Part shown: positions 289 to 19,822 of the stretch, piece by piece
How the letters are laid out: each line of letters starts with the position of its first letter
Numbering within the stretch: the stretch's first letter is position 1
Origin: Acidobacteriota bacterium
Lineage (GTDB): Bacteria > Acidobacteriota > Holophagae > Thermotomaculales > Thermotomaculaceae
Length of the DNA stretch: 39,385 nt
Reading direction: 5' to 3'
Assembly: GCA_013152385.1 (NCBI GenBank)
Contig: JAADGL010000020.1
Coordinates: 1 to 39,385 of the forward strand
Notes under the pieces: model-generated
Seen by the model: the letters and a program-made list of their open reading frames with translations, nothing else
Databases searched by the model: none
Told to the model about the DNA's origin: nothing
Position numbers and translations under genes: made by a program

Positions 289-3200
289 TGGCAGAGATGG
301 TATGATCCGCTGTAACGTTTGTAAAGGTGTAGCTGCTCACCGCACCCACTGATGTGCTGTCCACTGTTACATCACTGATGTGGTAGCCGGTAGTTGCGGT
401 GATGGTAAAGGCCTGGTCCGCACCGTCGTTCACCGTTACATTGCCTGCGGGGCTGATGCTGCCGCCACTCCCCGCACTGGCTGTGATGGTGTGGGTAGTG
501 CTGACCGGCGCCGGTGTTGTTTCCGTACAGGAAGAAGCCGTTACCGTTACATCATCCACATACCAGCCCTGGCTGCTTTGACTGCTGTCACATGCGAGGC
601 GGAAACGAATGATGACATTGTTACCCACGTAGGGAGTCAGGTCCACCGTTACTTCGCTCATGCTGCCCAATGTACCGCCGGTCCATGCGGAACGGCCGGC
701 GATTGGACTGCTGAAAGAGGTGGAAATGGTTCCGGTATAGCCACCGGATGTAATGTCATTGCCCAAATCACTGAAATTATTTCCGCCATCTGTTGAGATT
801 TCGATTACGCAGCCGTCATAGCCGTTTTCCATTTCGTAAGTATGCCAGAAGCTCAGGGTGGCGGAAACGACAGATGTCAGGTCAATCGCACTGGTCTCCA
901 GGTAGTCATCTTTTACACTTGCTTCATCCTGGCTATACCAGGCGTTGGAAGAGGAATGGACATATGAACCATTCAACGCCCAGTCGGTGCTTCCGCTTGC
1001 CAATGTTGTTGTCCAGTTTCCGGTACCGCTTTCCATATCGTCTGAGAAGGGTATGGAATTTGCCGGGGTTGTATTTGTAGTAAAAGTGTAGATGTCAGAT
1101 TCCGACGCATTGGATGCAGAATCGGTTGATCCAACTTTGAAGTAGTATAAAGTAGAAGCTGTCAGTCCCGTAAGAGTTATACTGTGGCCGGTTACCAACG
1201 CCGCATCGCTTGTGGTTGAAGCGGGGGGATTATTTGTACCGTAGGTCACAACAGAGTCCGCCGGTTCATCGGTATCCCATGTCACCACACACTGGTCCGA
1301 TGCAACGCACAAAGAAATGTTGGAGATAACAGGTGGCGTTGTATCAGTGTACGGTGCAATGGCCGCTGTGGCATGGGCAACCAGCGCAAAGGGCTGAGGC
1401 CCCTGCGGAACATTATATCCGGTGACCCGGACAATGTAGGTTCCCGAAACAGGCGCCGGGACATCAATGGTCTCACTATTGTTCACCCGGTCAGCGGAGG
1501 TTCCGTGATTGGGGTAGAGTGTTGTGCCGGATGGAGTCTGCACTGTTAAGTCCAGGTCGTTAACCAGTTCTACGGAAGCTGATGCGGCACCCGGATAATC
1601 TGTCCAGGTTAAAGTAATTTTCATTGGTTTGGATGTATCGGATATAACAATCTGATACGCGGCTACATCACCGGTATTCAATCCGGTGGTTTCATCAACG
1701 TAAGAAAGTTGAACCGGCGAGGCAGGCATCAGGGTTTCACTGAGTTTGACCCGGCCCCATCCTTCAACACTGTTGGGACGCAGTGTCGGCTGCTCCTGAG
1801 TTGCACCCGTACCATATTGCCCGGGATACATGTCATACGCACCGTTCATCATTGTGGCTTTAATCAATGCGGCGGAGGGAGTAACGCTTTCGTGATTCAC
1901 AAAAAAATCACGGGTGACGACCGCTGCCCCGGAAGTCAAGGGAGTTGCCATGGATGTACCGCCGTCATAGAGGTACCAATCATCATAAACCCCCCAGCCG
2001 GTACCGGCACCGCTGGCTTGGGACCGTGTGGAAATAATCATGGTGCCGGGTGCACTGATTTCGGGCTTGATCCGGTTGTCCGGCGCCGGCCCGCGGCTGG
2101 AAAATGCCGCCATTCCGTCCGGATCCTCATCAACTCCGTCACTTTTGATCGGATCAGCCGGAAAATCCGATGACCAGTATGCGCCCCATGTGCCGGTATC
2201 GTCATCAATATCACTCTCTGTTGCGCCAACCGTAATGCAGTTTTTCGCGGTTCCCGGTGCCGTAACAGATCGGAGATCCACAACACCATCACTATTTCCA
2301 TCTGATCCGTCGTTTCCGGCGGCAAAGAGGATAAGAAAGTCTTTGTGGTTCCACATAAACTGATCTACTTCCACTGCTTCGCTGTCATAGACATATCCGC
2401 CGGAACTGAGAGGCAGTCCCCAGGAGTTAGAATGGACCCTGGCACCGTCATCATACGCCTGCTGAAACAGGTCATTTAAATCGTTTGGAATTCCGCCGAG
2501 GCCGCCGTTACTGTCGAGTACGGATTGCTCCACTAAACGAGCTTCATATGCCGTGCCTTTAAAATTACCGGCCGAATGACTGCCGTCCCCGACAATGGAA
2601 CCGGCTGTATGGGTGCCATGGCTGTCGGTATCAGACCAGTCATTGGTTCGGCCCAATGCATATGCTGCCACAAGGCGTGTTGTATTTGTACTGCTGTTGT
2701 CATCATTATCAAAATCAGCGTGAATATCGGACAAACTGCCCTTATCCAACCCGGTATCACAGATACCGACAATCTGGCCGTTTCCGGTATATCCGGCTGT
2801 CCACAGAGCCGACATGTCCATGATGCTGCCGGCATGCTGGTTTTTCAGCTCATTTTGCGGCCGTTTCCTGAGTTTAAGCGCCACTTCAGGTTTTTTGCTG
2901 TAAAATACGGGTTTCCGATACTTTTCAATCCATTTGAGGCCGGGCAACACCGCCAGATTTTCCAGCTGAGACTTTTTCAGTTTAATGATTGCGGATTGCT
3001 GCCATTCACTTTCCGACCATTTTATGATGTCCGCCCCGGCATCCTGAAGCCGGTATCGGACAACAGCCGCATCAGAGATCGGATAAAACTGAATCTGAAG
3101 GGTTAACTCCCTGTCTTGAACCGTGCCTTTGATACCTGCTTTGTTTTCCCGCAAAACGTCCGGAGAAATCCGGTATTCAGGCTGAAAAATACCTTTCCAT

Positions 3201-3526
3201 CGAAGATGTTTCAAATGAAGTTTCTGCATGACCTCCGGTGTCGCAAACACCGCATAGGCGAAATCCGGAACATAATCCACCACACGGCATCCCGCTTTTT
3301 CCAGTATTGCCCTGGCATCCCCGGTAACCGGGCCGTCAAACTGGACGATATGCAGCCGAATCCGGCCTTTGGGATATTTCGCGATAAAAAAACGCGACTC
3401 CCGTGTTTTCAAATTGAAGGCTTTTTCAGGATTCACAGTCCCTGCTTTAAACCTTAGCAGCAACGGGCCGGAATAACCGGCAACTGCAAACAGGCAAACG
3501 AAAAAAGCTATGGAAATTCGTCTCAT
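1..3526 (-). CDS. secreted subtilisin-like (S8) serine protease A, C-terminus cut by window edge
   Basis: The minus frame is open from an ATG at 3526 to the left edge with no stop, giving at least 1175 residues. GGAGGGG just upstream is a strong ribosome binding site. The N-terminus is a hydrophobic signal peptide (about residues 1-19) followed by a propeptide-like region. The S8 catalytic triad is clear: Asp257 in CDTGLD, His303 in SHGTHTAG, Ser525 in GGTSMATP. After the catalytic domain come a beta-sandwich region (about 565-720), a fibronectin type III-like domain starting at DTTPPV (about 727-815), a MAM/immune-inhibitor-A-like domain (about 820-995, SDDMESG to GWYVDDV), then InlB/Listeria-Bacteroides-type repeats from about 1007 onward. 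It should act outside the cell as an endopeptidase; substrates cannot be told from sequence. It is paralogous to the protease at 20868-25262. S8 assignment is secure; the domain names after residue 565 are by pattern only. Confidence 0.93.
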   Translation of the reverse strand, partial: MRRISIAFFVCLFAVAGYSGPLLLRFKAGTVNPEKAFNLKTRESRFFIAKYPKGRIRLHIVQFDGPVTGDARAILEKAGCRVVDYVPDFAYAVFATPEVMQKLHLKHLRWKGIFQPEYRISPDVLRENKAGIKGTVQDRELTLQIQFYPISDAAVVRYRLQDAGADIIKWSESEWQQSAIIKLKKSQLENLAVLPGLKWIEKYRKPVFYSKKPEVALKLRKRPQNELKNQHAGSIMDMSALWTAGYTGNGQIVGICDTGLDKGSLSDIHADFDNDDNSSTNTTRLVAAYALGRTNDWSDTDSHGTHTAGSIVGDGSHSAGNFKGTAYEARLVEQSVLDSNGGLGGIPNDLNDLFQQAYDDGARVHSNSWGLPLSSGGYVYDSEAVEVDQFMWNHKDFLILFAAGNDGSDGNSDGVVDLRSVTAPGTAKNCITVGATESDIDDDTGTWGAYWSSDFPADPIKSDGVDEDPDGMAAFSSRGPAPDNRIKPEISAPGTMIISTRSQASGAGTGWGVYDDWYLYDGGTSMATPLTSGAAVVTRDFFVNHESVTPSAALIKATMMNGAYDMYPGQYGTGATQEQPTLRPNSVEGWGRVKLSETLMPASPVQLSYVDETTGLNTGDVAAYQIVISDTSKPMKITLTWTDYPGAASASVELVNDLDLTVQTPSGTTLYPNHGTSADRVNNSETIDVPAPVSGTYIVRVTGYNVPQGPQPFALVAHATAAIAPYTDTTPPVISNISLCVASDQCVVTWDTDEPADSVVTYGTNNPPASTTSDAALVTGHSITLTGLTASTLYYFKVGSTDSASNASESDIYTFTTNTTPANSIPFSDDMESGTGNWTTTLASGSTDWALNGSYVHSSSNAWYSQDEASVKDDYLETSAIDLTSVVSATLSFWHTYEMENGYDGCVIEISTDGGNNFSDLGNDITSGGYTGTISTSFSSPIAGRSAWTGGTLGSMSEVTVDLTPYVGNNVIIRFRLACDSSQSSQGWYVDDVTVTASSCTETTPAPVSTTHTITASAGSGGSISPAGNVTVNDGADQAFTITATTGYHISDVTVDSTSVGAVSSYTFTNVTADHTISASFAVNTYTLAGANGTISGTTPQTVNYGADGSAVTAVPATGYHFVNWSDGSTANPRTDTSVTADISVTANFAVNTYTLTYTAGANGTISGTTPQTVN

Positions 3527-5788: not shown

Positions 5789-6526
5789 TTAAACACCGAA
5801 TGAAAGGCGCGCGGCAAGATGATAAGGCAGGCCTTCCGCCAGAATGCGGTTCTGTGCAGCTTCAACATTGTAATGAACCCGGTAGTAGTATAGTTTTCCG
5901 GTATCGGAATCCATAATCAGAAAGGATGCCCGATAATCGCGGTCACGGGGCTGGCCCACCGAACCCGGGTTGATCAGATAGCGGTGAGCCGGATCAAGGA
6001 GAACCACGTCTCTGTCCAGAAGCCGTCGAAAATGAATACTGGTTCCGTCAAAATCAAAAATACAGGGGACATGGGTATGGCCGAAGAACATCATGTGGGT
6101 GGAAAAACGGTTGAATACCTGAAAAGCGTCAAATTCACTGAAAAGGTAGTAGTCTTCATTGGCCGGAGAACCGTGAGACAGCATGATTTTGTCATTTACC
6201 CGAACCGGCCCCCGGGGCATTTCACGGATAAATTTGAGGTTGTCCATGGATAATTTTTCAAATGTCCAGTCTGCGGCAATTTTCGCCTTATCGTTAAAAT
6301 TATATCCTTCTTCAATTCCCGAACACACTTTGTCATGATTTCCCCGGACCGTCACAAGGCCGCGGAATTTTCTGACCGTATCCACCACCTGATTGGGAGC
6401 GGCACCGTAGCCGACCAGATCACCGAGAAACAGGACACCGGAATATTTTTTCCTCCTGACAAATGCCAGAACAGCCCGCAGGGCTTCTATATTCCCGTGA
6501 ATGTCACTGATAACAAGGTGTCTCAT
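5789..6526 (-). CDS. YfcE/MJ0936-type metallophosphoesterase
   Basis: 245 residues with the full calcineurin-like phosphoesterase signature: DIHGN (8-12), GDLVGYG (35-41), GNHD (62-65), LSHGS (116-120), GHTHVP (149-154) and [11 protein letters not shown] near 185-195. These residues bind a dinuclear metal centre and hydrolyse phosphomono- or diesters. The [17 protein letters not shown] form is typical of small cytosolic enzymes related to YfcE and diadenosine tetraphosphatases; the physiological substrate cannot be decided. Its start overlaps the accC stop in ATGA, indicating translational coupling as the last gene of the efp-accB-accC operon. Confidence 0.87.
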
Positions 6527-7863
6527 CTTCTGGCAAATCTCTCCATAAAATGTGTCGTCAGGTTACCCGCCCGGAAATCCTCATCTTCCAGTATTTTTAA
6601 GTGCATGGGAATGTTGGTTTTGATTCCTTCAATAAAGAACATTCCCAACGCACGTTTCATGCGGGCAATGGCTTCCTGCCGGTCATGCCCGAATGTAATC
6701 AGTTTCGCAATCATGGAATCGTAGTAAGGAGAAACCGTGTAACCGGAGTAAGCGGCAGTTTCCAGACGCACCCCCAATCCGCCGGGGGCATGAAAAGCCT
6801 CGATTTTTCCCGGAGACGGCATGAAAGAGACCGGATCTTCCGCATTGATTCTGCATTCGATACAATGCCCGAAAAATTTGATATCCCGCTGGGTGAAAGG
6901 AAGTCTCTCACCTGCCGCAAGGGCAATCTGAAGCTTAACCAGATCAATGTTTGTGACACCTTCTGTAACGGTATGTTCAACCTGGATACGGGTGTTCATT
7001 TCCATAAAATAGTAATTCCCGTCTGCATCCAGAAGAAATTCAATGGTACCCAGGCTGGAATACCCAATGGCATGGGCAGCACGTTTTGCCGTGTTCCCCA
7101 TTTCTCTCCGCTGTTCCGGTGTCAATACGGAAGAAAGCGCCTCTTCAATCAGTTTCTGATGATTACGCTGAATTGAACATTCGCGCTCTCCGAGATGTAC
7201 AGTGTTCCCATTGTTGTCCGCAACAATCTGAACTTCAATATGCCGGGGATTCTCAATATATTTTTCCATGTACATGGTATCATCGCCAAATGCTGCGCCC
7301 GCTTCGGTCCTGGCCATGTTGTATGCGGATAACAACTCACTTTTCTCCCGAACAATCCGCATTCCCTTTCCACCGCCTCCGGCAGAGGCTTTTAGAATTA
7401 CCGGATATCCGATCCTTTCGGCAAGTTCCGGCAATTCATTTTCGGATTTTATCGGCCCGTCACTGCCGGGAACCACAGGAATCTTCTTCCGGATCATGGT
7501 GTCCCGTGCCCGGGATTTATCGCCCATTAACCGGATATGTTCGGCTTTGGGGCCAATAAAGGTTATTCCGCAATCACTGCACACTTCGGCAAAATGCGCG
7601 TTTTCCGCCAAAAATCCGTAACCCGGATGCACCGCATCCGCTCCGGTAATTTCGGCAGCGGCAATGAGGGCAGGGATAGAAAGATAGCTTTTGCTGCTGG
7701 CAGCACTGCCAATGCAAATACATTCGTCCGCTAATTTTACATGGAGTGATTCTTTATCCGCGACAGAATAAACACTTACGGTCGGAATTCCCAATTCTTT
7801 GCAGGCATTGATTATTCTCAGTGCAATTTCGCCCCGGTTGGCAATCAGGATTTTCTTGAACAT
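6523..7863 (-). CDS. accC: biotin carboxylase subunit of acetyl-CoA carboxylase
   Basis: 446 residues, the standard AccC length. It carboxylates biotin on BCCP using ATP and bicarbonate, the first half of the acetyl-CoA carboxylase reaction that opens fatty-acid synthesis. Visible motifs: [11 protein letters not shown] (7-17), [10 protein letters not shown] (79-88), the ATP-grasp glycine loop [11 protein letters not shown] (158-168), [12 protein letters not shown] near 230, and the catalytic [15 protein letters not shown] near 287-301. It lies 13 bases downstream of accB, with GAGG before the ATG. The carboxyltransferase genes accA/accD are not in the window. Confidence 0.97.
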
Positions 7864-7876
7864 ACGGTTACCGGCC

Positions 7877-8350
7877 TCATACCGGTTTTACAGCAAATAA
7901 TTTCTGACCGAATTCCACCGCTTCCGCGTTTTTCGGAAAGATTTTGACAACAGTTCCCTCAATCTCCGATTCAATCTCATTCATAATTTTCATTGCTTCG
8001 ATAATACAGAGAACCTGGCCTTTCCGGATCACATCACCAACCGAGATATAGGGTTCAGAATCCGGATTCGGAGAACGATAAAATGTGCCGATAATGGGTG
8101 ATTCTATGATTTCAAGGTTGTCCAGAGAAATTTCATCCGCACCCTCTCCCTCAACAGGAACTTCGGAAGGAACGACAGGAGCCGGCGGAGCCTGAAACCG
8201 GCCGGGTATCGGGGAGCCTGCAACAACAGGATTGCTTCCGCCAACTTCCTTTTTCAGTTTCAAGTTGAAATCCTGTGCGGCAAACTCAAATTCCGAAAGC
8301 CCGTTTTTATGAAAGGCTTCCATCAGTTTTTGAATTTCTTTTACATTCAC
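7877..8350 (-). CDS. accB: biotin carboxyl carrier protein of acetyl-CoA carboxylase
   Basis: 157 residues. The C-terminal biotinyl domain has the [11 protein letters not shown] motif, with Lys121 as the predicted biotinylation site, and a [11 protein letters not shown] thumb region (84-94). A Pro/Ala-rich linker (about 41-66) joins it to an N-terminal helix beginning NVKEIQKLM, as usual for AccB. The start is a GTG whose GTGA overlaps the efp TGA stop, pointing to coupled translation. It supplies the substrate of AccC encoded next door. Confidence 0.96.
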
Positions 8351-8910
8351 TTCTTCACCCTCGTAATATATTCACCTGTCCGAGTATCAATTCTCACCTT
8401 CTCCCCCTCGGTAATAAATAATGGGACCTGAATCACCGCGCCGGTCTCCACCGTCGCCGGTTTGCTCCCCCCGCTGGCAGTATCTCCGCGGAGTCCCGGG
8501 TCTGTATGGCTGATTTCAAGTTCCACAAAAATCGGAAGCTCGATTGAAATCGCCTCCCCTTTGTAAAAAAGAACATCAATTTCCATGTCCTCCTTCAAAA
8601 ACAGCCGCTTGTCCCCAAGTTTTTCCACAGGTACCGGGATCTGGTCATAGGTATCCAGATCCATCAAGATTAAATCGTCCCCCTGGCTGTACAGAAACTG
8701 CATATGCCGATCCTGCAGCTCGGGTTTCCCGACTTTTTCCCCCGCACGAAAAGTTTTACTCAGCACTGCGCCCGTCTGCATATTTTTCATTTTTGTACGG
8801 ACAAAAGCACCGCCTTTTCCGGGTTTTACGTGGAGAAATTCAACAATTTCAAAAGGGACGCCATCCAATTCAATTTTTAAACCATTTCTAAAATCACTGG
8901 TATCGTACAT
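8347..8910 (-). CDS. efp: translation elongation factor P
   Basis: 187 residues, standard EF-P length. It relieves ribosome stalling at polyproline stretches. The KOW-like N-terminal domain carries the PGKGGAFVR loop with Lys32 at the tip, the position modified by lysylation or related chemistry in lysine-type EF-Ps. The C-terminal OB domains end with GDTASGGSKPATVETGA and IRIDTRTGEYITRV-like signatures. GGAGGAGACA precedes the ATG. It is the first gene of an efp-accB-accC unit, an arrangement common in bacteria. I see no epmA/epmB or earP in the window, so the modification type is open. Confidence 0.97.
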   Translation of the reverse strand: MYDTSDFRNGLKIELDGVPFEIVEFLHVKPGKGGAFVRTKMKNMQTGAVLSKTFRAGEKVGKPELQDRHMQFLYSQGDDLILMDLDTYDQIPVPVEKLGDKRLFLKEDMEIDVLFYKGEAISIELPIFVELEISHTDPGLRGDTASGGSKPATVETGAVIQVPLFITEGEKVRIDTRTGEYITRVKK

Positions 8911-9067: not shown

Positions 9068-9388
9068 TTATGTCAATTCCGGCAGCAAACGGCTATATAA
9101 TTTCAACATATCTAATGCAAAATATTTGCTGTCCTCTCCTTTTTTTCCCAGCAATGCGATAAAGAAATCACCTGCCTGACGTAAAAGAACCAAACGGCCA
9201 TTTAAATCCAGCAATGTTTCTTCGGGACGAAATATTTCCAGGCGAATCGCGTTTGAAACAATATCCGCAAGATCAATGACCGTTTTTTCCAACTCCAAAC
9301 CGGGGGTCTGATACACAACCAGGGCCTCCTTATCGAAAATGACAAATTCCCTGTCCGCCAGGTCCTTGGTTATTTCGCTGAATTGCAT
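9068..9388 (-). CDS. small roadblock/LC7-like protein, last gene of the pilus operon
   Basis: 106 residues without signal peptide or membrane segment. The alternation of strands and helices (FVIFDKEALVVYQ, then a helix with LADIVSNAIRLE, then RLVLLRQAGDFFIALLG, then a helix to the C-terminus) resembles the roadblock/LC7 (MglB-like) fold. The sequence match is weak and this is an inference. The gene overlaps the end of the upstream TPR gene by 19 bases, so the two are probably co-translated. GGAGAAAATCAC precedes the ATG. Roadblock proteins act as scaffolds or GTPase regulators in polarity systems. No MglA-type GTPase is seen in the window, so a structural role with the TPR partner is equally likely. 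Confidence 0.6.
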   Translation of the reverse strand: MQFSEITKDLADREFVIFDKEALVVYQTPGLELEKTVIDLADIVSNAIRLEIFRPEETLLDLNGRLVLLRQAGDFFIALLGKKGEDSKYFALDMLKLYSRLLPELT

Positions 9389-10359
9389 GTGATTTTCTCC
9401 ACCCAGTTTTCGAGTTTGATAATGATATGTTTCCGGCTGCTTCCTGTCCCTCCGGCCAGTTCCCTGACACGTTGGAGTTCCGCCGCCAATTCATCGGTAC
9501 CCTCTCTGCGATATAATGTCTCCAGAATATCCAGCGCTTCCCGGTACATTTTCTGGCGTTCATAAACCCTGGCCATTGTCAGCGTTTTGATCTCAACATC
9601 ATTACCGGATGAAACCTCAACAGATTCCGCATTTTCTTCCGGAACACGAACCGTAACAATTTCATCCGGGACAACTGTTTCTTCTTCCGGGATCTCTTCA
9701 AGGCCGTCATCAATCGATTCGGCGATTTCTTCTTCAGCCGATTGGCCTCTTTCTCCCAGTTTTAACACATCGCCATCTGCCGGGCGGGATTGGGATGAGC
9801 TGTCCGGTACGGAACCGGTGAGTTCACTCTCAAGAAAGATCTCAGTAACCTCATCCTCAAGGATAATGTCCTCATCTGCATCGGCAGTCTCAACATTATC
9901 CGCTTGCGTTTCCTGATGCTCTTCCCCATCTCCTTCTACAATGCCGAATTCAAGTGTCTCCGGCTGTTTGTCAGCTGTTTGTTCAGGTGGTCGCTGTAAA
10001 GCCTCGGCACGCTGGCGAAGATCCAGTAAAGCCGGATCATTCTCCGGAACCATGAATGCCAGAAATTCCAGATGCACCATCGCCTGTTTTTGATCATGTT
10101 TTTGAATCAGCAACTCGGTCAAGATCATGCGTGCACGGATATTTTCAGGGTTCGCCGCAATAATTTCCCGAAGTTCTTCCACCGCTGCATCAATACTTCC
10201 GGTTCTGGACAGAATTTCGCTTTTTAACACCCTTGCCGGGCTGAACCCGGGGTAAAGATCGAGGCACCGGGAAACAATTCCCAGTGCCTCATCATATTCA
10301 CCCTTGCGGGCCGCGTCTTCGGCCTTCTGCAGCAACGCGATCCGGTTGGTCTGTACCAT
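9370..10359 (-). CDS. TPR-repeat protein with long acidic linker, pilus operon
   Basis: 329 residues, no signal peptide, so cytoplasmic. Residues about 1-120 form tetratricopeptide repeats (ARKGEYDEALGIV, RTGSIDAAVEEL, KHDQKQAMVHL). Residues about 125-260 are a strongly acidic, low-complexity linker rich in Glu/Asp. Residues about 262-310 form another TPR-like unit (VYERQKMYREALDIL). The ATG follows the TAG stop of the upstream lipoprotein gene directly, and the 3' end overlaps the next gene. The architecture suggests an adaptor linking two binding surfaces. It resembles TPR proteins often found with type IV pili, but I cannot equate it with PilF/Tgl, which is an exported lipoprotein. Confidence 0.75.
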   Translation of the reverse strand: MVQTNRIALLQKAEDAARKGEYDEALGIVSRCLDLYPGFSPARVLKSEILSRTGSIDAAVEELREIIAANPENIRARMILTELLIQKHDQKQAMVHLEFLAFMVPENDPALLDLRQRAEALQRPPEQTADKQPETLEFGIVEGDGEEHQETQADNVETADADEDIILEDEVTEIFLESELTGSVPDSSSQSRPADGDVLKLGERGQSAEEEIAESIDDGLEEIPEEETVVPDEIVTVRVPEENAESVEVSSGNDVEIKTLTMARVYERQKMYREALDILETLYRREGTDELAAELQRVRELAGGTGSSRKHIIIKLENWVEKITCNSAK

Positions 10360-12315
10360 CTACCTGAGCCCGAGCGTTATAACCCTGCCGGCGGTCTGGC
10401 CATTTTCCCCCCGTGCCAGAATCAGCAATGCGACTTCAGGGGACAGATTTGAACGATAGTCGTCCCGAAGCTGAATGGACAGCCTTGCGGAATCGACAGG
10501 AATGAACCTGCCCTGTGAAAGGGAAACCCATTTACCATCGGAAGTTTTCATTTCGATGTCCCGCTCACCGGAAACCGTTTTTATTAGTACGGAACCACCT
10601 GCCATGTCTGCCGGGAGATTGATGGTAAAAGCAGACACCGGTGCCTGTTGCGGAGTTGCACGGCGGATAATGGGGGCATTTGTATCAAAGTGCAGAGAAT
10701 TTGCCTGTTTGCAAAGGCCACTCCCCTGAACCAGAGAGTAATGATTTACAGCACTGCCGTCCTTGTCAACAGCCACCAGCTGAACCACGCTGTAACCAAA
10801 TCCCTTGCTCAAAATCTTATAATTGACAGAAATCAATCCGTTTCCATCTTTCAAAGAACCGGAGTTCCGATTGAATACCAGACGGTCACCGTCAATGGTA
10901 TAAAGTCTGTAACTGACAGCGGACTGCGCAAGGTCCTCCACATTCCAGGAAAGAGACCCTGGTGCAGAAGTCCTGTCTGCAATTTTCACGGCATTGTTTT
11001 TAGTCGTATTCACCTTGATTTTGAAGGTCTTGTTCACAACCGTACTGTCGCCATAAGCAGTCAGAACGAAAGTTGTATCCACGTTAATCGGTTCAGTTAC
11101 AGCAGAATTCTGATGTGTTACATCCAGAATATCGTCGGCCTGATTGTAGAAAGGAAACAATTCCGCCTTTGTGTAACTCCCTTGAATTGTCCAATACAGA
11201 TGCGCCACACTACCTGCATCCACACTGTCCGTACTACCGGTAAAAAGAGTAATTTCCGGTTCCGAATTGTTCACGGTCAAAGCGGTAACGGCTGTTTTCA
11301 CTCCGTCGCCATTACTGGCCACCAGAGTATAAGTGGTTGAGAATTGCGGAGAAACGGTTGTCTCACCGGAAGTTGATGCGACAGTGCCGATTCCGGGATA
11401 AATTGTTACAGATGTCGCATCTGACACATCCCAGCTTAATGTCGCACTCTGGCCGCTGCCAATTGATGCCGGTTGAGCGGAAAAAGTGTTAATTGTCGGC
11501 AGCATCGGGGTTGTTGTAACCTCATCAATATCAACACTTTCTGAAGTTACACCGAAAATACCCATCGCCACCAGAGTAAAAGTCTGGGGAAAATCCACAT
11601 TGTGAATTGTATAGGTGCCATAGGGATAGTATCCGGCAGGTGTCAAATGAATATCACCCGGGTTCAGGATTAACTCATTCACGTCACCGGTCACATACCA
11701 TGCCAACGCCACATCCTGCCCGTCTACTCCTTCTTTCTTATCCGCAAAGAAAGAACCGATTGCAGGGACAAGCGGGTCCACATCGTTCCCGTAGTTTGCA
11801 ATTGTCACTTCAATGGACCCAACAGCATCCACATATTGCCCGGAACCATTCTTGCCATTGAATGTAATTTTTGCCGTCATTTCATAGGGAGACAGTGTCC
11901 CGGCGAGGGCACCGCTGGTTTTTTCCTGCAGTCGAACAACCATTACATTGAATGTAGTTGTGCTGTTCACGGTAACTGTCTGTGAGAGCCCTCCGGTGAA
12001 ATTCGCGAAAACCGTACCCCCGTCAGTTCTTGAAAACTCGACTTTGTAACCGGTAATGGTCACATCATTAAAATGAGACGGGGTCGCACTGGGATTCTTC
12101 AGATAATTGCTGACGGTAACTGTTGCGTAATCTGCGGTAACACCATCCGTGGCATTTACCATATCCGATTCAATGTTATTCTGGCCATTTGTGCTGACGA
12201 CGGAATCCACTTTGAACACGGAAGGTACCTGGGCGTCCCCGGTAGCACCACCGCTGCAGCCCAGCGTGAAAACCATCCCCAGGGCCAAAAGAAACGAGAA
12301 AATTTTGATTTTCAT
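10360..12315 (-). CDS. Ig-module lipoprotein of the pilus operon
   Basis: The longest reading starts at 12351, but I choose the ATG at 12315 (651 residues). It is preceded by AGGGAGAAG, begins the signal peptide, and avoids overlap with pilQ. The signal sequence ends at FTLGC with Cys20 as the likely lipidated residue (a permissive lipobox). Three Ig-like modules follow at about 188-270, 272-349 and 350-435. The second (PTINTFSAQP ... TTYTLVASN) is clearly the same type as the triplicated module in the protease at 20868-25262. The last 200 residues are beta-rich and unrecognised. It is predicted to be an outer-membrane lipoprotein exposing beta-sandwich domains. Its place after pilQ suggests a role at the secretin or pilus exit site, which is inference. 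Confidence 0.82.
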   Translation of the reverse strand: MKIKIFSFLLALGMVFTLGCSGGATGDAQVPSVFKVDSVVSTNGQNNIESDMVNATDGVTADYATVTVSNYLKNPSATPSHFNDVTITGYKVEFSRTDGGTVFANFTGGLSQTVTVNSTTTFNVMVVRLQEKTSGALAGTLSPYEMTAKITFNGKNGSGQYVDAVGSIEVTIANYGNDVDPLVPAIGSFFADKKEGVDGQDVALAWYVTGDVNELILNPGDIHLTPAGYYPYGTYTIHNVDFPQTFTLVAMGIFGVTSESVDIDEVTTTPMLPTINTFSAQPASIGSGQSATLSWDVSDATSVTIYPGIGTVASTSGETTVSPQFSTTYTLVASNGDGVKTAVTALTVNNSEPEITLFTGSTDSVDAGSVAHLYWTIQGSYTKAELFPFYNQADDILDVTHQNSAVTEPINVDTTFVLTAYGDSTVVNKTFKIKVNTTKNNAVKIADRTSAPGSLSWNVEDLAQSAVSYRLYTIDGDRLVFNRNSGSLKDGNGLISVNYKILSKGFGYSVVQLVAVDKDGSAVNHYSLVQGSGLCKQANSLHFDTNAPIIRRATPQQAPVSAFTINLPADMAGGSVLIKTVSGERDIEMKTSDGKWVSLSQGRFIPVDSARLSIQLRDDYRSNLSPEVALLILARGENGQTAGRVITLGLR

Positions 12316-12337: not shown

Positions 12338-14377
12338 TTAATATTCGACAATTTTCGGCGTTACAAAAATCAGCAATTCGTTGTTTGTCGTGGAATTCAA
12401 GTCATGTTTGAACAGCCAGCCGAGAAGCGGAATTTTAGACAATCCCGGAACCCTGCCATGATCATATTGATCGTTTACCTGAAAAATTCCACCAATAACC
12501 GTTGTGCCTCCATTCCTGACCAGAACCTGAGTCGAAGCGTTCCGGGTCACAATTGTCGGGTTCCCCTGAATCACGTGTGTCCAATCCGGTTCTTCTTTCT
12601 TCACATGGACATCCATAATAATGGTTCCCTCGGCCGTAATCTGAGGCGTAACCTCCAGTTTCAAAGAAGCATTGATGTACTGAACCGTAACGGTGTTGTT
12701 CTGTACGGTTTGAATCGGAATTCTCGCGCCGCTTTCAATTTCAGCGGTTTTGTTGTTCTGAGTTACCACCTTGGGCCGGGAAAGGATTCGTCCGAGGCCG
12801 TCGTCTTCCATTGCGGATAAGACCATATCCAGAGAGAAAGAACCCAACACGTTCCCCATGTGAAGGCCAAAAGCGCTGGTCGCGCCGGTGGCCGGCAAAT
12901 TCACCGCATATCCGCCGATAGAACCGATTTTCCCGGAATCCGGGTCTATTGTCCCGCCAAAACTCATACTGTTGGGAAAATTCATGCCGGTCTGAGTTCC
13001 CAGGGAAGAATCGTAGATTCCGGTAAATCCCCATTGAATCCCCAGTTCGCGCTTAAATGTCTTGGCCACTTCCACAATACGGGCTTCAATAAGCACCTGA
13101 GTGGTGGCTTTATCCAGGGTATTGATAAGCTCAACAATCCCGGGAATTTTATCCGGAATATCCGAGACAATAATAATGTTTGTCCGCTCATCCACCATAA
13201 TTTTCCCGCGCTTGGAAAGATTGGCTTTAATGATGGGCTCAATATCCTTAACCTTCGCGTAAGACAGCGGTTTTGTAATAGTCTGTACCGGAACACTTAA
13301 ATCCTGCTCTTCTTTCAGTTTCCGGCGCTCCTGCTCTTCCTGACGGAATTTTTCCGTAGTCGCCACCCGCAGAACACCATTCTGCAGTTCACTGCCCAGG
13401 CCTTTATCTTTCAGGATAATATCCAATGCCTGGTCCCAGGGGATGTTTTTGAACCGATACGTTGCGGTTCCGGTTACCGACTGATCCACAATCAGATTCA
13501 AACCGGCAAATTCCGAAATGTAACGCAAGAGATCTTTGATATCAATATCTTTAATATCAATCAACCCGATTTTCTCACCAACATATTTCTTTCCGCCGCC
13601 TTCGATGGTCCGCGTAACGAAAGCGTATTTCTGCTTTTTCTGATCTTCCTTTTTGATGTTGTCCGGCAGGGCAGTATCCTGAGCAGGGGTCAGTGCCTCG
13701 CCCACATAAAAAGCCAAACCATCGGGATTCTCCCGCACTTTCGCCATTACTTTGGGAAAATCGGCATCAACGGAAATCCTCACATTATCCCCGACCTGAC
13801 GTACATTCAGATTTTTAAAATGCTTCGTCCCCGCCGGGAGTTTTTTCCCATCCACTCCCAAGAGGGATGCGTTCCGAATTAACAATTCCGCATGGTTTCC
13901 TTCACTGGAAGCTGTATAAAACGCTTTTCCAACGGTAGCAAACTTCACCGCGAGAAGATTGTCATCCAGTGCCGTAACGCCCTTCAGGGTCATTTTGGTC
14001 TTTTTATTCCCGGTAAAGAGAAAGGAAAGATGTTGTGCGGTATTTTCCACAGAGACATGAATCCCGGGGCTTTTCAGAAAAGTCAGCCGATACTGGCCAT
14101 TCCCAATGTTTTCCATATTGAATGCCCGGATTTCCTTTGTTGTCAGTTTGGGAATCTTTGCATCCATCTCCTCCACACCTTTAATCTCCACCACATACAG
14201 ATGTCCCGAATTACTGACAACCGTATAACGGAGAGGCTGATGCTGGTTATGAAAAACCGTAACCTTCGTGCCATACTGGTTGTCCACATAATTCAGCCCC
14301 TTGATGGAATAGGCAAACAGACTGGTTCCCACCATAGTGGACAAGAGCACAATAAAAATTCTTGCCTTGATGTTCAT
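12338..14377 (-). CDS. pilQ: type IV pilus secretin PilQ
   Basis: I choose the ATG at 14377 (679 residues); an in-frame TTG three bases upstream is less likely given AGGAGG spacing. A signal peptide is followed by two AMIN-type peptidoglycan-binding regions (about 25-110 and 130-225), an STN domain (about 268-345, IDIKDIDIKDLLRYISEFAG), a secretin N1/N3 domain (about 365-440) and the C-terminal secretin beta-barrel domain ending PGLSKIPLLGWLF and LLIFVTPKIVEY. It forms the outer-membrane gate through which the pilus passes. Its gene sits last in the conserved pilMNOPQ order, 11 bases after pilP. Confidence 0.96.
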   Translation of the reverse strand: MNIKARIFIVLLSTMVGTSLFAYSIKGLNYVDNQYGTKVTVFHNQHQPLRYTVVSNSGHLYVVEIKGVEEMDAKIPKLTTKEIRAFNMENIGNGQYRLTFLKSPGIHVSVENTAQHLSFLFTGNKKTKMTLKGVTALDDNLLAVKFATVGKAFYTASSEGNHAELLIRNASLLGVDGKKLPAGTKHFKNLNVRQVGDNVRISVDADFPKVMAKVRENPDGLAFYVGEALTPAQDTALPDNIKKEDQKKQKYAFVTRTIEGGGKKYVGEKIGLIDIKDIDIKDLLRYISEFAGLNLIVDQSVTGTATYRFKNIPWDQALDIILKDKGLGSELQNGVLRVATTEKFRQEEQERRKLKEEQDLSVPVQTITKPLSYAKVKDIEPIIKANLSKRGKIMVDERTNIIIVSDIPDKIPGIVELINTLDKATTQVLIEARIVEVAKTFKRELGIQWGFTGIYDSSLGTQTGMNFPNSMSFGGTIDPDSGKIGSIGGYAVNLPATGATSAFGLHMGNVLGSFSLDMVLSAMEDDGLGRILSRPKVVTQNNKTAEIESGARIPIQTVQNNTVTVQYINASLKLEVTPQITAEGTIIMDVHVKKEEPDWTHVIQGNPTIVTRNASTQVLVRNGGTTVIGGIFQVNDQYDHGRVPGLSKIPLLGWLFKHDLNSTTNNELLIFVTPKIVEY

Positions 14378-14388
14378 CAACTCCCCTC

Positions 14389-14865
14389 CTATTTATTTAA
14401 ATATTTAGTGATATCACGGTAAGGCAGCAGCTGAGAAGGGTCATCGATATCCTGCCGGAATACCACCTTCTCCACCTGTTTGCCGGTTTTCTTGTCTACG
14501 GAAACACCGATTGACAAAACACGTCCGTCGTAAAGTTCATCGCCCGGCTTGATCCAATAAATTTTGTTGTCACTGCCAAGGACCAGTGCCTCATATCCGC
14601 GTTTTTTGGATTTGATAATCCCCTGAATGACAATCTCATTGATTGCCATTCCGCGAATTCCCGGCCGCCGGTTTTTCTTCCCCTTCAAACGCTCCAGATC
14701 AAAGGGAGAAACGAAGGGATCTCTGTTGGATTTCGGAATGTACCGGCTTTCACCCTCAACGGATATTTCCTCTGATTTCTTCTTTTCCGTTTTTCCGTTC
14801 TGCTGTGAAAAACCCGGTGCCGTCATCAGCATCAGCAGTATCACGAATGAAAAAAGTCGCTTCAT
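14389..14865 (-). CDS. pilP: type IV pilus alignment protein PilP
   Basis: 158 residues with an N-terminal signal peptide (about 1-20). The characteristic RDPFVSPF element (about 47-54) is followed by a small beta-domain with IVIQGIIKSKKRGYEALV and YDGRVLSIG, the homology region that contacts the PilQ N0 domain. No lipobox cysteine is present, although many PilPs are lipoproteins. PilP links the inner-membrane PilN/PilO complex to the secretin. Its ATG overlaps the pilO stop in ATGA, and its ribosome binding site is a run of nine G. Confidence 0.9.
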   Translation of the reverse strand: MKRLFSFVILLMLMTAPGFSQQNGKTEKKKSEEISVEGESRYIPKSNRDPFVSPFDLERLKGKKNRRPGIRGMAINEIVIQGIIKSKKRGYEALVLGSDNKIYWIKPGDELYDGRVLSIGVSVDKKTGKQVEKVVFRQDIDDPSQLLPYRDITKYLNK

Positions 14866-15446
14866 TTCGCACCCCCCCCCAAATCAGAGATGTCTGTCTT
14901 TTCATTGTAGATAAAAGTGGAAACAGTACAGTTTACCGCAATGGAGTATTTGGAATTGTCTGTCTTCAACTTTTTCATTTCCAGACTTTTTACATTCAGA
15001 ATCTTGGGGAAATTTGCAAGATTGGCAAAGAAATGTCCGACATCATTATAACGTGCCCGTAATTTCAGATTGTACGGCAACTCGGTATAGACGTCAGTGC
15101 TGATACGTTTGTCCGCTTTGATGCTGACAATGTACACCTGATTATCATTGGCCATGCGGTTTAAATTCCCGTACAGTTTCCCCGCTTCCAGTGTACTGGG
15201 CATAATCCCTTTCAATTTAGCCAACTTACGTTTCAAGTCATTGATTTGACGGTTAAACTCATTGATCTTTGCTTGCAGTGCCCGGCCTTTCCGGATATCC
15301 GATTCCACTTTTGTGATCTGAGCTTTGGTGGAATCAATTTGCTGATACCAATCTTTGAAGACAGCAAAGTATCCGATGGCAACAATTAAAACCAACAATA
15401 TGATCAACACCGCCGCCTGGGCCTTGGGGGATAGATTATCCATCAT
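14862..15446 (-). CDS. pilO: type IV pilus inner-membrane platform protein PilO
   Basis: 194 residues: short cytoplasmic N-terminus, one transmembrane segment (about 11-30, VLIILLVLIVAIGYFAVF), a periplasmic coiled coil (about 35-80) and a ferredoxin-like C-terminal domain. This is the standard bitopic PilO layout. It dimerises with PilN and binds PilP. Two adjacent ATG codons occur (15446 and 15443); the second has the better spacing from AGGAG. The end of the gene contains the G9 tract, so any length change would alter the last residues and move the stop. Confidence 0.9.
   Translation of the reverse strand: MMDNLSPKAQAAVLIILLVLIVAIGYFAVFKDWYQQIDSTKAQITKVESDIRKGRALQAKINEFNRQINDLKRKLAKLKGIMPSTLEAGKLYGNLNRMANDNQVYIVSIKADKRISTDVYTELPYNLKLRARYNDVGHFFANLANFPKILNVKSLEMKKLKTDNSKYSIAVNCTVSTFIYNEKTDISDLGGGAK
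14872..14880 (-). repeat. nine-base poly-G tract at the pilO/pilP junction
   Basis: Nine consecutive G on the minus strand (C on the plus strand) encode the glycines near the PilO C-terminus and also serve as the Shine-Dalgarno region of pilP, whose ATG is seven bases downstream. Tracts of this length are prone to slipped-strand length changes. Confidence 0.85.
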
Positions 15447-15454
15447 CTACTCCT

Positions 15455-16081
15455 TTATGCTCCCATCCCCGGCTTGGAGGACTGGTTGGTTGACTGGTTG
15501 ATAGACAGAACCATTTCAAAATACACAACGTTCGGAATTCGGTATTTCTCGTCTTTCCGAAGCAACGGATAGTCAATGTTCTGAACAATAGGTGAGTGAG
15601 ACAGGTCCTGATAAAACTGGTTTGCCGCCTCAGAATTTTTTGCCCGCCCCTTGATGGTAACCGTACTCCCTTTTTGAACAATGCTTTCAAACCAGACTGT
15701 ATCGGGACAGCGGTTATAAATCTCCTGCAATAGCTTCATCGGCTGAGACTGACGGTCTTTTAACTGAACAATTGTCTGTTCTTTCTTCTCAAGCAGTTCC
15801 TTTTGTGCCCTGAATCGCTTTTCCAGCTCAATGAGGCCCTGGTACCTTTTCAGCTCCTGTTTTTTCGCACGAAGTTCCCGGGCCTTTGCCTCTTTAGTGT
15901 TATACAGGGTATACCCCCAGACGCCAAAGCCAACCAGACCCAGGATGAATACAATCGCAGCAATGACAACAATCGCATTGGATTCACCTTCGATTGCCGA
16001 AAAGGCCGTAACTGCCGTAGACTCTTTCGGAGCCTTTTTGGGAGCCCCCTCTCTGCCAGAAAGAAGATTAATCTGTATCAT
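15455..16081 (-). CDS. pilN: type IV pilus inner-membrane platform protein PilN
   Basis: 208 residues beginning with the conserved PilN cytoplasmic tail IQINLL (2-7), which docks into PilM. A long linker of about 30 residues rich in Ala/Lys/Glu separates it from a single transmembrane segment (about 36-58). A coiled coil (about 62-110) and a ferredoxin-like periplasmic domain follow. The pilM stop and pilN start are adjacent (TAA ATG), with AAGGAG inside the pilM end serving as ribosome binding site. It forms the PilN/PilO heterodimer. Confidence 0.92.
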   Translation of the reverse strand: MIQINLLSGREGAPKKAPKESTAVTAFSAIEGESNAIVVIAAIVFILGLVGFGVWGYTLYNTKEAKARELRAKKQELKRYQGLIELEKRFRAQKELLEKKEQTIVQLKDRQSQPMKLLQEIYNRCPDTVWFESIVQKGSTVTIKGRAKNSEAANQFYQDLSHSPIVQNIDYPLLRKDEKYRIPNVVYFEMVLSINQSTNQSSKPGMGA

Positions 16082-17143
16082 TTACATCTCCTTTCTCATC
16101 GCCAACCCAACTGCGGTTGCAGCCATCGACGAAATTTCGTTGATAAACTGGGCATCAAACATATTTTCATTCACCTCAATGGTTTTAAAGGCGTTGAAAA
16201 TCTCTACTTTGAACCCCACTTTATCAGTAATTACCTGTTCAAGGCCATATACCAGTGCCGACCCTCCCGAAACCAGGATCCGATCAATGTTGGTATACTG
16301 GGAAGTGGCCTTGAAAAACTCAAATGTCTTTAAAAACTCGCCGACCATGTCTTCTGAAACCGAGTTCAATATCGGAATTACACTTTCAAAAGAAACCCCC
16401 TCAACCGAACCGCCCTTTTTCAGAATTTCCGCATCTTCGAAGGAAAGGTTTAATTCTTTTTGAATCGCATTGGTATAGTAATTTCCTCCAATGGAAAGAT
16501 CCCGCCAGAAAAGAGACCTGGAGCCGCTCATTATATTGATATTTGTCGTTGCGGCTCCGATGTTAATCAAAGCGGTAGTCACTTCATCTGAAACGTTATA
16601 ATTCAGCTCGGTTGCATTCTGGAGGGCAAACGCTGCGACATCCACCACTCCCGGCTCCTTCCCCGCCTGCACAACCACCCCGGTATACTCGCTGATTACA
16701 TCTTTCTTGGCAGCGGCAAGGATTACTTCCATCTGGCCGTCCTGGCGGTCTTCACCGGACACAATCTCATAATCCAGATTTACTTCATCAATTTCAAAAG
16801 GAATGTACTGTTCCGCTTCCCAGCGAATTGACTCGTTCAATTCCTCCATGGACATTTGTGGAAGCAACATTTTTTTGATAATAACTCCGTTTCCGGATAC
16901 CGCCACCGCAGCTTTAGCAGCCTTGGTTCCCGTTTTTTCAAACAGCTTCCTGACCGTATCCGCAACTGCGAAAGAGTCCATAATGGCACCATCCACAATA
17001 CTCTCCGGAGGAACCGGTTCCACACCGACATTCACCAGGCGATATCGCATCCCCTCCTTATCAAGCTGCTTGAGCTCAACAAGCTTGACAACAGTGGAGC
17101 CAATATCCAAACCTACCAACTGTTTCTTTTTTCCAAATATCAC
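16082..17143 (-). CDS. pilM: type IV pilus actin-like assembly ATPase PilM
   Basis: I place the start at the GTG at 17143 (353 residues). It yields the family-typical opening IFGKKKQLVGLDIG and has GGGAAGG six bases upstream, while the longer TTG start at 17158 has no ribosome binding site. Actin-like nucleotide-binding motifs are GLDIGSTVVKLVEL near the N-terminus, INIGAATTNINI near the middle and ILVSGGSALVYGLE near the C-terminus. PilM is cytoplasmic, binds the PilN tail and connects the platform to motor ATPases. Motor genes pilB/pilT/pilC are not in the window. It is the first gene of the operon. Confidence 0.94.
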   Translation of the reverse strand: MIFGKKKQLVGLDIGSTVVKLVELKQLDKEGMRYRLVNVGVEPVPPESIVDGAIMDSFAVADTVRKLFEKTGTKAAKAAVAVSGNGVIIKKMLLPQMSMEELNESIRWEAEQYIPFEIDEVNLDYEIVSGEDRQDGQMEVILAAAKKDVISEYTGVVVQAGKEPGVVDVAAFALQNATELNYNVSDEVTTALINIGAATTNINIMSGSRSLFWRDLSIGGNYYTNAIQKELNLSFEDAEILKKGGSVEGVSFESVIPILNSVSEDMVGEFLKTFEFFKATSQYTNIDRILVSGGSALVYGLEQVITDKVGFKVEIFNAFKTIEVNENMFDAQFINEISSMAATAVGLAMRKEM

Positions 17144-17186
17144 ATTCCACCTTCCCAATTTTATTTATATAAACTTGTTAAAAAAT

Positions 17187-17230: not shown

Positions 17231-17995
17231 TCATGGCTCCTCCCGGACCACAATCACAGTTATATTGTCATCCCCTCCCTGCTCATTGGCTTTATGAATC
17301 AATTGATCAATTAATTCTTCCGGGTTCTCATGAAAACGAATAAAGATTTTTTCCATGTCATCAGCTGCTACCATTGAATTGAGGCCGTCACTGCAAAGTG
17401 CCACGAGATCCCCCGGTTCCAACGGCAGTTCATCTATCTCTACGGACAGGCGCTCGGCACCTCCAAGCGCCTGCGTAACCACATTTTTCATCGGGTGTAC
17501 CCGTGCCTGTTCCTCGGTGATCAAACCACGCCGAACCTGCTCGGATACCCATGAATGATCGTTGGTCAGAAGTGAAAGTTTTTGATTCCGGAAAAGATAT
17601 GCCCGGCTGTCCCCGACATGGGCAATGGTGGCGTTGTCCCGGTCAAAGATGGCGGCAACGATTGTGGTTCCCATACCATTTAACTGCGGGTCCCCGGCAA
17701 CCTTTGACAGGATTGCGTCATTGGCCAGTTTAATGCCCACCATCAACTTATTTGCATTCAGAGAAAAAGCAATATCATATTTATAGGGCCAGGTAATGTC
17801 CTCGTTTCCGTTTACCTGCCTCAGGAATGAAGACATCCGCTCAACCGCAAGTTCTGAGGCAACTTCACCGGCGGCGTGTCCTCCCATTCCGTCCGCCACC
17901 ACCGCAAACCCCAGTTCGGGATCTGTTAAAAAAGCATCCTCATTGTGATTTCTCTTCATTCCCACATCTGTTTTACCAAAAAAAGTGCAAGTCAT
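17231..17995 (-). CDS. PP2C-family serine/threonine protein phosphatase
   Basis: 254 residues, the length of bacterial Stp/PrpC enzymes. All PP2C metal-binding motifs are visible: VGMKRNHNEDAF (11-22), VADGMGGHAAGE (33-44), AHVGDSRAYLF near 140, LTNDHSW near 155, CSDGLNSMV near 210 and GGDDNITVIVV near the C-terminus. It should remove phosphate from Ser/Thr in cytosolic proteins, normally opposing an Hanks-type kinase; no kinase gene is in the window. It starts three bases after the DnaJ-TPR stop and belongs to that unit. Confidence 0.95.
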   Translation of the reverse strand: MTCTFFGKTDVGMKRNHNEDAFLTDPELGFAVVADGMGGHAAGEVASELAVERMSSFLRQVNGNEDITWPYKYDIAFSLNANKLMVGIKLANDAILSKVAGDPQLNGMGTTIVAAIFDRDNATIAHVGDSRAYLFRNQKLSLLTNDHSWVSEQVRRGLITEEQARVHPMKNVVTQALGGAERLSVEIDELPLEPGDLVALCSDGLNSMVAADDMEKIFIRFHENPEELIDQLIHKANEQGGDDNITVIVVREEP

Positions 17996-17998
17996 AAT

Positions 17999-18661
17999 CT
18001 ACTTCCTACCGAATAACTTTAAAAATAAACCCTTACCGCTTCCATTCTTTGAAACGCCTCCGCCGAGACGTTCCAGCCCGTCTATCGCCTCCTGGCACGA
18101 ATCATCCAGCTTCAATGCTTTCTGAAAATATTTACGCGCACGGGTTCGCATTCCCCCTTCAAGGTAAAGCGTACCGATTTTAGCACGGTATTCAGCTGAA
18201 AAGGGATCCAGTGTAACCGCTTTCTCCAGATACTCCACAGCTTTCCGTCGCTTCCGGGGATCTTTCCCCATAACAGTCGCAAGGTAAAAAAGGTATTTCG
18301 GATTATCTTTATCCAGATACACAGCCTTTTTGAAAAATTCCTCTGCCATTTTATATTCAGAAAGATTATTTAACTGATTGAGGCCGTTTTTGAAGAATTG
18401 TCTGGCCTGTTCTTTTGTGTCAGTTTGTTTAACAGTGTCCGAATCCGTTCCCAAGCCCTGATCGTATGCCGCCCGTTTTTCAGGGTCTTTCAGGGTATTA
18501 AATGCCGCTGTAATTTCCTGAAAACGGATTTCCGCTTCCGCCTTCTCATCCGGGTCAGCGTAACGGTCCGGATGATGCAGCTTAATTAATTTACGAAAAG
18601 CGGCTGATATTTCATCCTGAGATGCATTCTTGTTGACCTGCAACAAATCATAATAATTCAC
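17999..18661 (-). CDS. J-domain protein with C-terminal TPR repeats
   Basis: 220 residues from a GTG start with GAGGTG upstream. Residues about 2-66 are a J domain with YYDLLQV and the essential HPD (30-32), so it should stimulate an Hsp70 (DnaK) ATPase. Residues about 85-205 are TPR-like helices ([45 protein letters not shown]). There are no DnaJ zinc fingers or C-terminal client domains. The TPR part probably selects a client or partner. It is paired with the PP2C gene, suggesting a signalling or chaperone-regulation role (inference). Confidence 0.88.
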
Positions 18662-18721: not shown

Positions 18722-19822
18722 TCAATATTTTTTCCGCCCCCTTAATATTCTCTGTGCCGCACGCCTCACAAATTCCGATAACGATCGGTCCCGATTGATC
18801 AACTGCAGATCCCTGTCTGTCAAACGATGGAGCAGGGTCAAAGAAATGTCCTGAGGAACTTTCGGGTTCTTGACCAGATTTAACACAACCTTGTATTTTT
18901 TCAGAAAAACCCGGCTGGATGCAAGTTTCCGCAACACATCCCGGTGCACATTCCGCATCGCCGAGATTGTTTCCGCTTCCTGTTCCGTAAGCTTCGGACT
19001 CTGCATCACCGCCAGCGCTACAATTCGATTTGAATCCCGAATCAAAATCGAACGCTCTTCCTTGTTCCCTTTCAGGGCCCTCTGTATTTTTTGAGAAACC
19101 GACATTTTCAACAGTTTCTGGAAGGTGTTGAGGTCCATATCATCTTCAATTTCAATTGCTGAAGGTGAATGGAGAACATCTTCACTTTCCTCCGCTGTCA
19201 GTTCCGAATATACCTCCAGAACTTCCCCGGAAATCTCTTCTTCAACTGCCGGCAGTTCATCCTCGCCGGGAAACTCTTTTTCCGAAACCGGAGATTTTCT
19301 TTCGGCCGGGGCAGCTCCCTGTTTTCCCACCAGTCCGAATTTCAAATATTCCTGCAGACGTTTGGACTGAGCAGGAGAAAGTGCTTTGTTTTGCACCAGT
19401 GCATCAAATACGCTGGGGTACGCCTGCAGTACCGCATGGTTATTTAAAAGATAATTCAATACGACAGAAGAGGAAAGGGCAGCCATCTTTTCCAGGATTT
19501 CCCCGTCACTTGCAGGGTTCCGAACAATATCCAGAAAATATTTTTCAGCATTCTCATGGGCACCGCCCTGCAGAAGCTCAAAATAAAATAAGAGCGCTTC
19601 CCTGTCATCCGCATGAAGCAGAAAATCACTGACCACATCAGACGGGATTTCCGGAAAAGACCGTGTCACAGCCTGACGGATTCCCTCATCTCCCTTCAGG
19701 TATACAACCGGCAATAAAGAAAGCATCTGTTCCGGTGGCAATGGGAAGGTAAGCGTCGCAATTGCAGAAAGCACATCCGGTGGAATATTTCCATCCAGTA
19801 TTTTCTTCTTCAGGTCCAACAT
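18722..19822 (-). CDS. uncharacterised HEAT-like helical protein
   Basis: 366 residues, no signal or membrane segment. Residues about 1-165 are helical repeats, about 166-235 an acidic Pro/Glu linker, and about 240-366 a conserved-looking helical domain (SQKIQRALKGNKEERSILI, DSNRIVALAVMQSPKLTE, KNPKVPQDISLTLLHRLTDRDLQL). I recognise this C-terminal part as a family seen in Acidobacteriota- and deltaproteobacteria-like genomes without assigned function. It starts six bases after the RodZ-like gene and is probably co-transcribed. A scaffold function is plausible but unproven. Confidence 0.8.
   Translation of the reverse strand: MLDLKKKILDGNIPPDVLSAIATLTFPLPPEQMLSLLPVVYLKGDEGIRQAVTRSFPEIPSDVVSDFLLHADDREALLFYFELLQGGAHENAEKYFLDIVRNPASDGEILEKMAALSSSVVLNYLLNNHAVLQAYPSVFDALVQNKALSPAQSKRLQEYLKFGLVGKQGAAPAERKSPVSEKEFPGEDELPAVEEEISGEVLEVYSELTAEESEDVLHSPSAIEIEDDMDLNTFQKLLKMSVSQKIQRALKGNKEERSILIRDSNRIVALAVMQSPKLTEQEAETISAMRNVHRDVLRKLASSRVFLKKYKVVLNLVKNPKVPQDISLTLLHRLTDRDLQLINRDRSLSEFVRRAAQRILRGRKKY

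Follow-up and report, generated by a model that had tools for sequence, protein, structure and literature searches.

A roadblock-fold protein encoded behind pilQ in Acidobacteriota and its possible link to the MglA/MglB polarity switch

Gene content of the pilQ locus

The window, meaning the whole stretch of 39,385 nucleotides analysed here, is one contig of a 2.57-Mb, 99% complete genome of an Acidobacteriota bacterium (Thermotomaculaceae). Its minus strand carries, in order, pilM-pilN-pilO-pilP-pilQ, a lipoprotein gene, a TPR gene, a gene for a 106-aa protein, and the genes for EF-P, a 157-aa biotin carrier and a biotin carboxylase. The platform and alignment genes pilM, pilN, pilO and pilP (14389..17158; Pfam/NCBIfam, with PilP under its curated cut-off) lie upstream of the secretin gene pilQ (12338..14380; TIGR02515, E 1.4e-119). 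PilB and PilT are also encoded in this genome and, together with PilM-PilQ, identify a type IVa pilus system. The three open reading frames that follow pilQ lie on this strand at the coordinates given in the initial annotation, and the tight gene contacts it reported are all confirmed. The pilQ stop ends at 12338 and the ATG of the lipoprotein gene follows 22 bases on, at 12315, with an in-frame upstream start (MREKS...) as a possible alternative; the TAG of the lipoprotein gene (10360) touches the ATG of the TPR gene (10359); and the TPR gene overlaps the 106-aa gene by 19 bases, a GGAG motif within the former preceding the start of the latter. No GTPase gene occurs among the open reading frames of this pilQ-trio locus. 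Downstream of the trio, efp, accB and accC (6523..8910, minus strand) are neighbors conserved by synteny. They are probably not part of the module; the roadblock gene follows pilQ even where they are absent.

The order pilQ-lipoprotein-TPR-roadblock is kept, wherever contigs reach, in eight relatives from two genera: three other genomes of the window's genus, in pieces on short contigs, and five of the sister genus. Such conservation, with the parts also recurring in the phylum, is more than chance would give. Identity of the trio proteins is 60-76% within the genus and 24-54% between genera, and a pepP-like peptidase gene stands between roadblock and efp in the sister genus. Just upstream of pilM, a PP2C-type phosphatase and a DnaJ-TPR protein (window 17231-18661) are likewise kept in the sister genus where contigs reach. 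A 366-aa protein encoded further along (window 18722-19822) has no Pfam match and is conserved at 40-43% in the same place in that genus.

The first gene of the trio (10360..12315, minus strand) encodes a putative outer-membrane-type lipoprotein of 651 aa from ATG 12315, with a signal sequence and an LGC-S lipobox placing the lipidated cysteine at residue 20 (Cys20). AlphaFold predicts an N-terminal all-beta domain with high confidence (residues 32-173), followed by three beta-sandwich, Ig-like modules (185-265, 274-349 and 354-436), a poorly predicted segment (438-559) and a beta-rich C-terminus. The three Ig-like modules expected from the sequence are thus recovered in the model, and Foldseek places mostly multi-Ig proteins among its top matches; the overall TM-scores are low, probably reflecting a flexible orientation between the predicted domains. 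The lipoprotein of the sister genus stops after the third Ig module, so that the C-terminal 210 residues are specific to the window's genus. Two large subtilisin-like proteases are also encoded in the window (20868-25301 and 2-3526), and that at 20868-25301 has Ig-like repeats similar to the Ig modules of the lipoprotein.

The second gene (9370..10359, minus strand) encodes a 329-aa, putatively cytoplasmic protein, defined by Pfam TPR matches, composition and a C-terminal HMM, with no hydrophobic membrane stretch in its sequence. Its TPR-acidic-TPR layout, as first described, holds: Pfam places TPR repeats at about 8-110 and 262-284, and residues 115-255 between them are 31% D/E. The protein ends in a conserved helix containing a tryptophan (KLENWVEKI). 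A Trp-bearing C-terminal helix is found in most families, and the C-terminal HMM finds matches across the phylum.

Fold and relatives of the roadblock protein

The third gene (9068..9388, minus strand) encodes the 106-aa protein, assigned here by AlphaFold, Foldseek, hhalign and synteny. The initial annotation had called it roadblock-like. Plain profile searches do not bear this out, while fold comparison and profile-profile alignment do. The protein belongs to no family in Pfam or NCBIfam, and a PDB sequence search likewise returned nothing useful; neither it nor its seven relatives match PF03259 above the cut-off, a profile that is matched by several pilQ-linked homologs elsewhere in Acidobacteriota. 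The AlphaFold model, built with eight family members, has a helix-strand-strand-helix-strand-strand-strand-helix order (mean pLDDT 76, pTM 0.72). In Foldseek against the PDB, its best matches are nearly all roadblock/LC7 proteins, at probability 1.00 and with TMq mostly between 0.58 and 0.75. The best 50 include Streptomyces roadblocks, MglB of Myxococcus and Thermus, Asgard roadblocks and LAMTOR/Ragulator, as well as one chain each of coatomer zeta, a dynein complex and a GATOR1 complex. As modeled, the 106-aa protein is therefore a member of the roadblock/LC7 fold.

Its link to the pilQ-linked roadblocks found across the phylum was reached through gene position; besides fold and position, it is carried by a profile-profile match: hhalign aligns the roadblocks of the window's family with pilQ-linked roadblocks of other families at a probability of 91% (E 9.5e-7). 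With a plain HMM, the phylum roadblock profile scores the window protein at E = 4.3 and its Thermotomaculum-type relatives at 7.7e-4 to 1.3. A profile built from the window's family alone finds no match in the PDB and no other family at strong E-values.

The initial annotation cited MglB as the known roadblock protein. A polarity protein, of a kind that in other bacteria helps to set the cell end at which pili form, is indeed the closest match to the pilQ-linked family, namely MglC and not the GAP MglB. In the PDB, the best match of a 16-row profile of pilQ-linked roadblocks, to which the window's family contributes four rows, is Myxococcus MglC (7ct3) at E = 8.5e-21; the next match is a Thorarchaeota roadblock at 1.1e-9, and MglB is absent among the PDB matches. 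The MglB of this genome, whose gene neighbors one for MglA on another contig (L076), matches MglB at 1e-53. In a tree of 80 roadblocks, which has only 117 columns and long branches, the window's included, MglC nests among the pilQ-linked sequences and the MglBs group apart as a clade (97/93). The 63 sequences that are pilQ-linked, relocated or MglC are all set off from the MglBs and an ftsY-linked roadblock by a branch supported at 97/78. MglC contacts MglB through F25-D26-I28 and RomR through K104-R106-R110 (PMC10329633), regions where the aligned MglC reads GFDGI and GKGRY. By simple pattern matching, in which a few hits may sit at a neighboring position, [x]DG[ILMV] in the FDI region occurs in 53/55 pilQ-linked roadblocks and G[RK]x[RK] (K/R104-x-R106) in 40/55. 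By sequence, then, no known protein is nearer to the phylum-wide pilQ-linked family than MglC. MglB, the GAP of MglA, has the roadblock fold in common with this family, is a polarity GTPase regulator and also lies beside MglA elsewhere in the window's genome, but it differs in forming a separate clade, in its extra C-terminal region and in having no match to the pilQ-linked profile.

The window protein itself has diverged from this pattern. At the F25-D26-I28 site it reads FDKE, keeping F and D and losing I28; at the K104/R106 site it reads SKYFALD, where the K/R-x-R motif is absent. MglC, unlike the window protein, has both the KRR motif and I28. Nor does the window roadblock group with MglB or have an adjacent mglA. 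It is thus the divergent equivalent, by synteny, of the MglC-like roadblocks linked to pilQ; as it is without most of the MglC interface residues, it is not assigned to MglC. The lost motifs and the weak match to the phylum profile suggest that its partners may differ.

MglC of Myxococcus xanthus (MXAN_5770; PDB 7CT3/7CY1; PMC7949163, PMC10329633, PMC12719032) is likewise a small single roadblock domain in a genome with MglA and MglB. The same three papers describe no coupled partner of the TPR type with a W-helix and no secretin lipoprotein. The locus tags of MglC (MXAN_5770; PMC11112851) and PilQ (MXAN_5772; PMC3222651) place the two genes close together. With the MglC gene two locus tags from pilQ in M. 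xanthus, and the window's roadblock gene also near pilQ, the association of MglC-type roadblocks with pilQ probably extends beyond Acidobacteriota. McLoon et al. 2016 may already describe mglC beside pilQ.

Distribution across Acidobacteriota and co-occurrence with MglA

PilQ is present in 118 of 149 sampled Acidobacteriota, and the stretch downstream of pilQ was read in about 100 of these genomes (101 loci). The initial annotation named conservation of the trio beside pilQ in related genomes as a check, and such conservation is seen: the full order is kept in the family and the parts are conserved across the phylum. Over the 101 loci, a first round of searches with family-seeded HMMs gave 51 frames for the N-domain of the lipoprotein and 35 for the C-terminus of the TPR protein, rising to 60 and 50 after iteration; the N-domain is thus conserved after pilQ phylum-wide (60/101 loci). 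In 58/118 pilQ genomes, from 31 families, pilQ is followed on the same strand by a roadblock gene at a distance of 30 b to 5.9 kb; the 58 are to be read as an occurrence count and not as an unbiased ratio, the profile having been seeded from pilQ-linked copies. In several families (f12, f18, f22, f32, f35, f37, f43 and f59), no more than about 360 bases separate the end of the PilQ domain from the roadblock, and the loci read yielded neither a lipoprotein nor a TPR gene, making the roadblock the most direct pilQ companion there.

Where both are present at Acidobacteriota pilQ loci, the TPR and roadblock genes mostly overlap or abut within a few bases. In two genomes, they are fused into one open frame: G115 (family 26, on a 6-Mb contig; L047:747-1568) and G111 (family 34; L140:1006-2637), and G150, of the same family as G111, has a comparably long frame (548 aa). 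In G070, the pair has left pilQ and relocated together. Translational coupling and natural fusions lead us to infer that the two proteins form a cytoplasmic pair. In Myxococcus, a Trp helix of RomR (W394) docks on MglC (PMC12719032), and the C-terminal Trp helix of the TPR protein was considered by analogy as the roadblock-binding site. This candidate is weakened, as the helix is kept in MglA-less genomes that have no roadblock; it would not be solely a roadblock-binding site and must have another use.

An MglA-type GTPase occurs in all 58 genomes with a pilQ-linked roadblock, versus 42/60 pilQ genomes without one. Among TPR-bearing loci whose sequence was read up to accB, pepP or efp, 33/35 MglA-positive ones contain the roadblock, versus 0/8 MglA-negative ones. 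Fisher tests give 1.8e-6 by genome, 4.2e-5 by family and 3.1e-7 for the TPR-bearing loci, p-values that are inflated by shared ancestry and overstate the case. An AccC tree holds about three independent MglA differences, with which the roadblock agrees in about two pairs and is invariant in one. As independent MglA losses are few, co-loss of roadblock and MglA is suggestive. A linked roadblock is missing from several families that possess both pilQ and MglA. The window's own genome contains an MglB-MglA pair unlinked to pilQ. This genome (G000) yields five MglA-like GTPase hits, one of them in a 387-aa frame that may be a fusion.

Possible role at the pilus base

That the roadblock was found only in genomes with an MglA-type GTPase suggests as its likely partner the MglA/MglB system, which is encoded away from pilQ, and not just the pilus platform. 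The arrangement fits the accessory module proposed in the initial annotation, with the lipoprotein at the secretin and a cytoplasmic TPR/roadblock pair; control of the platform, also part of that proposal, and any physical complex would go beyond the arrangement itself. The explanation put forward here, to which we give about an even chance, treats the trio as an accessory module for the type IVa pilus machine of Acidobacteriota, in which the roadblock would be an MglC-like adaptor joining the MglA/MglB switch to the PilM/N/O/P base. It draws on the fold, the conservation, the gene order, the co-occurrence with MglA and the position of MglC as nearest relative of the phylum-wide family, all obtained directly. 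The lipoprotein, judging from its lipobox and gene position, would lie next to the secretin PilQ at the outer membrane. The TPR protein would belong to the pilus base and pair in the cytoplasm with the coupled roadblock, which would act as an adaptor rather than a stand-alone GAP and connect the base to a switch encoded elsewhere in the genome, so that pili would be assembled or fired at a chosen place. Complex formation, location and the direction of regulation are here inferred.

On another account, the roadblock and the TPR protein would serve the pilus base alone, as structural or assembly components that bind, for example, PilM or PilB, and would have no GTPase partner. The tight placement of both genes behind pilQ, the retention of the TPR gene in MglA-less genomes and the absence of the MglC interface motifs from the window roadblock all agree with it. 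The roadblock, unlike the TPR gene, is however missing from every sampled MglA-negative locus, and the known protein nearest to its family is a polarity adaptor, which leaves this account unlikely. Its confinement to MglA-positive genomes would also suit a dedicated GAP or co-GAP, similar to MglB or RomY, acting on MglA or another MglA-like GTPase at the pilus; roadblock proteins do regulate small GTPases, and five MglA-like hits in the genome offer candidates. This role is rather improbable, given that the pilQ-linked profile prefers MglC and does not reach MglB, and that RomR/MglC leaves the GAP activity of MglB or MglB/RomY unchanged (PMC10329633). Finally, the pair could belong functionally to the efp/accB/accC block, which follows in most loci, and lie near pilQ only through inherited gene order. 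Short pilQ-roadblock distances occur without acc genes in the fetched stretch in G069, G084, G108, G119, G129, G130, G140, G149 and G173, and acc genes are kept without a roadblock in MglA-negative genomes; this reading is disfavored as very improbable.

The adaptor reading can be set beside systems known from other bacteria. MglA-GTP activates pili through the TPR protein SgmX (MXAN_5766; PMC7519303). Compared by description, SgmX and Bdellovibrio Bd2492 are, as the trio's TPR protein is predicted to be, cytoplasmic TPR proteins, and link MglA to type IV pili, though SgmX is larger (1,060 aa) and is encoded in another operon. RomY, also compared by description, is the partner of MglB in a bipartite GAP complex and likewise a component of a roadblock-containing polarity complex; the part of its published account available here describes no pilQ linkage (PMC9481161). 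A bolder form of the adaptor reading, tentative and on balance doubtful, holds that the polarity GTPase system is built genetically into the pilus operon throughout Acidobacteriota, by means of a docking pair of TPR and roadblock proteins that is coupled to PilQ and a secretin lipoprotein. The two known interfaces of MglC would then have been rebuilt in the window's family, whose roadblock would join the pilus to something other than MglB or RomR.

The route from polarity GTPase to pilus machine is still open in Myxococcus, where direct SgmX-PilB or SgmX-PilM contacts were not detected (PMC11580455). A roadblock that is coupled or fused to a TPR gene after pilQ, and absent from the loci of MglA-less genomes, is a candidate for the missing link and makes Acidobacteriota a phylum in which to test a GTPase-pilus connection; the data suggest that many of its members may link the pilus machine to the cell-polarity switch. 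A 2014 survey lists ‘orphan’ MglB-family proteins as uncharacterised (PMC4316618), and the pilQ-linked roadblocks may give some of these a role. Roadblocks away from pilQ also occur. Family f2 of the class Holophagae lacks a roadblock at pilQ but has a related one at another site (L138:4001-4393), with no TPR partner detected. The window's genome encodes a second TPR and roadblock pair (L077:3904-5059, G000:C31) directly before ftsY, in which a TPR lipoprotein abuts a 115-aa roadblock-like protein (PF03259, E 0.011).
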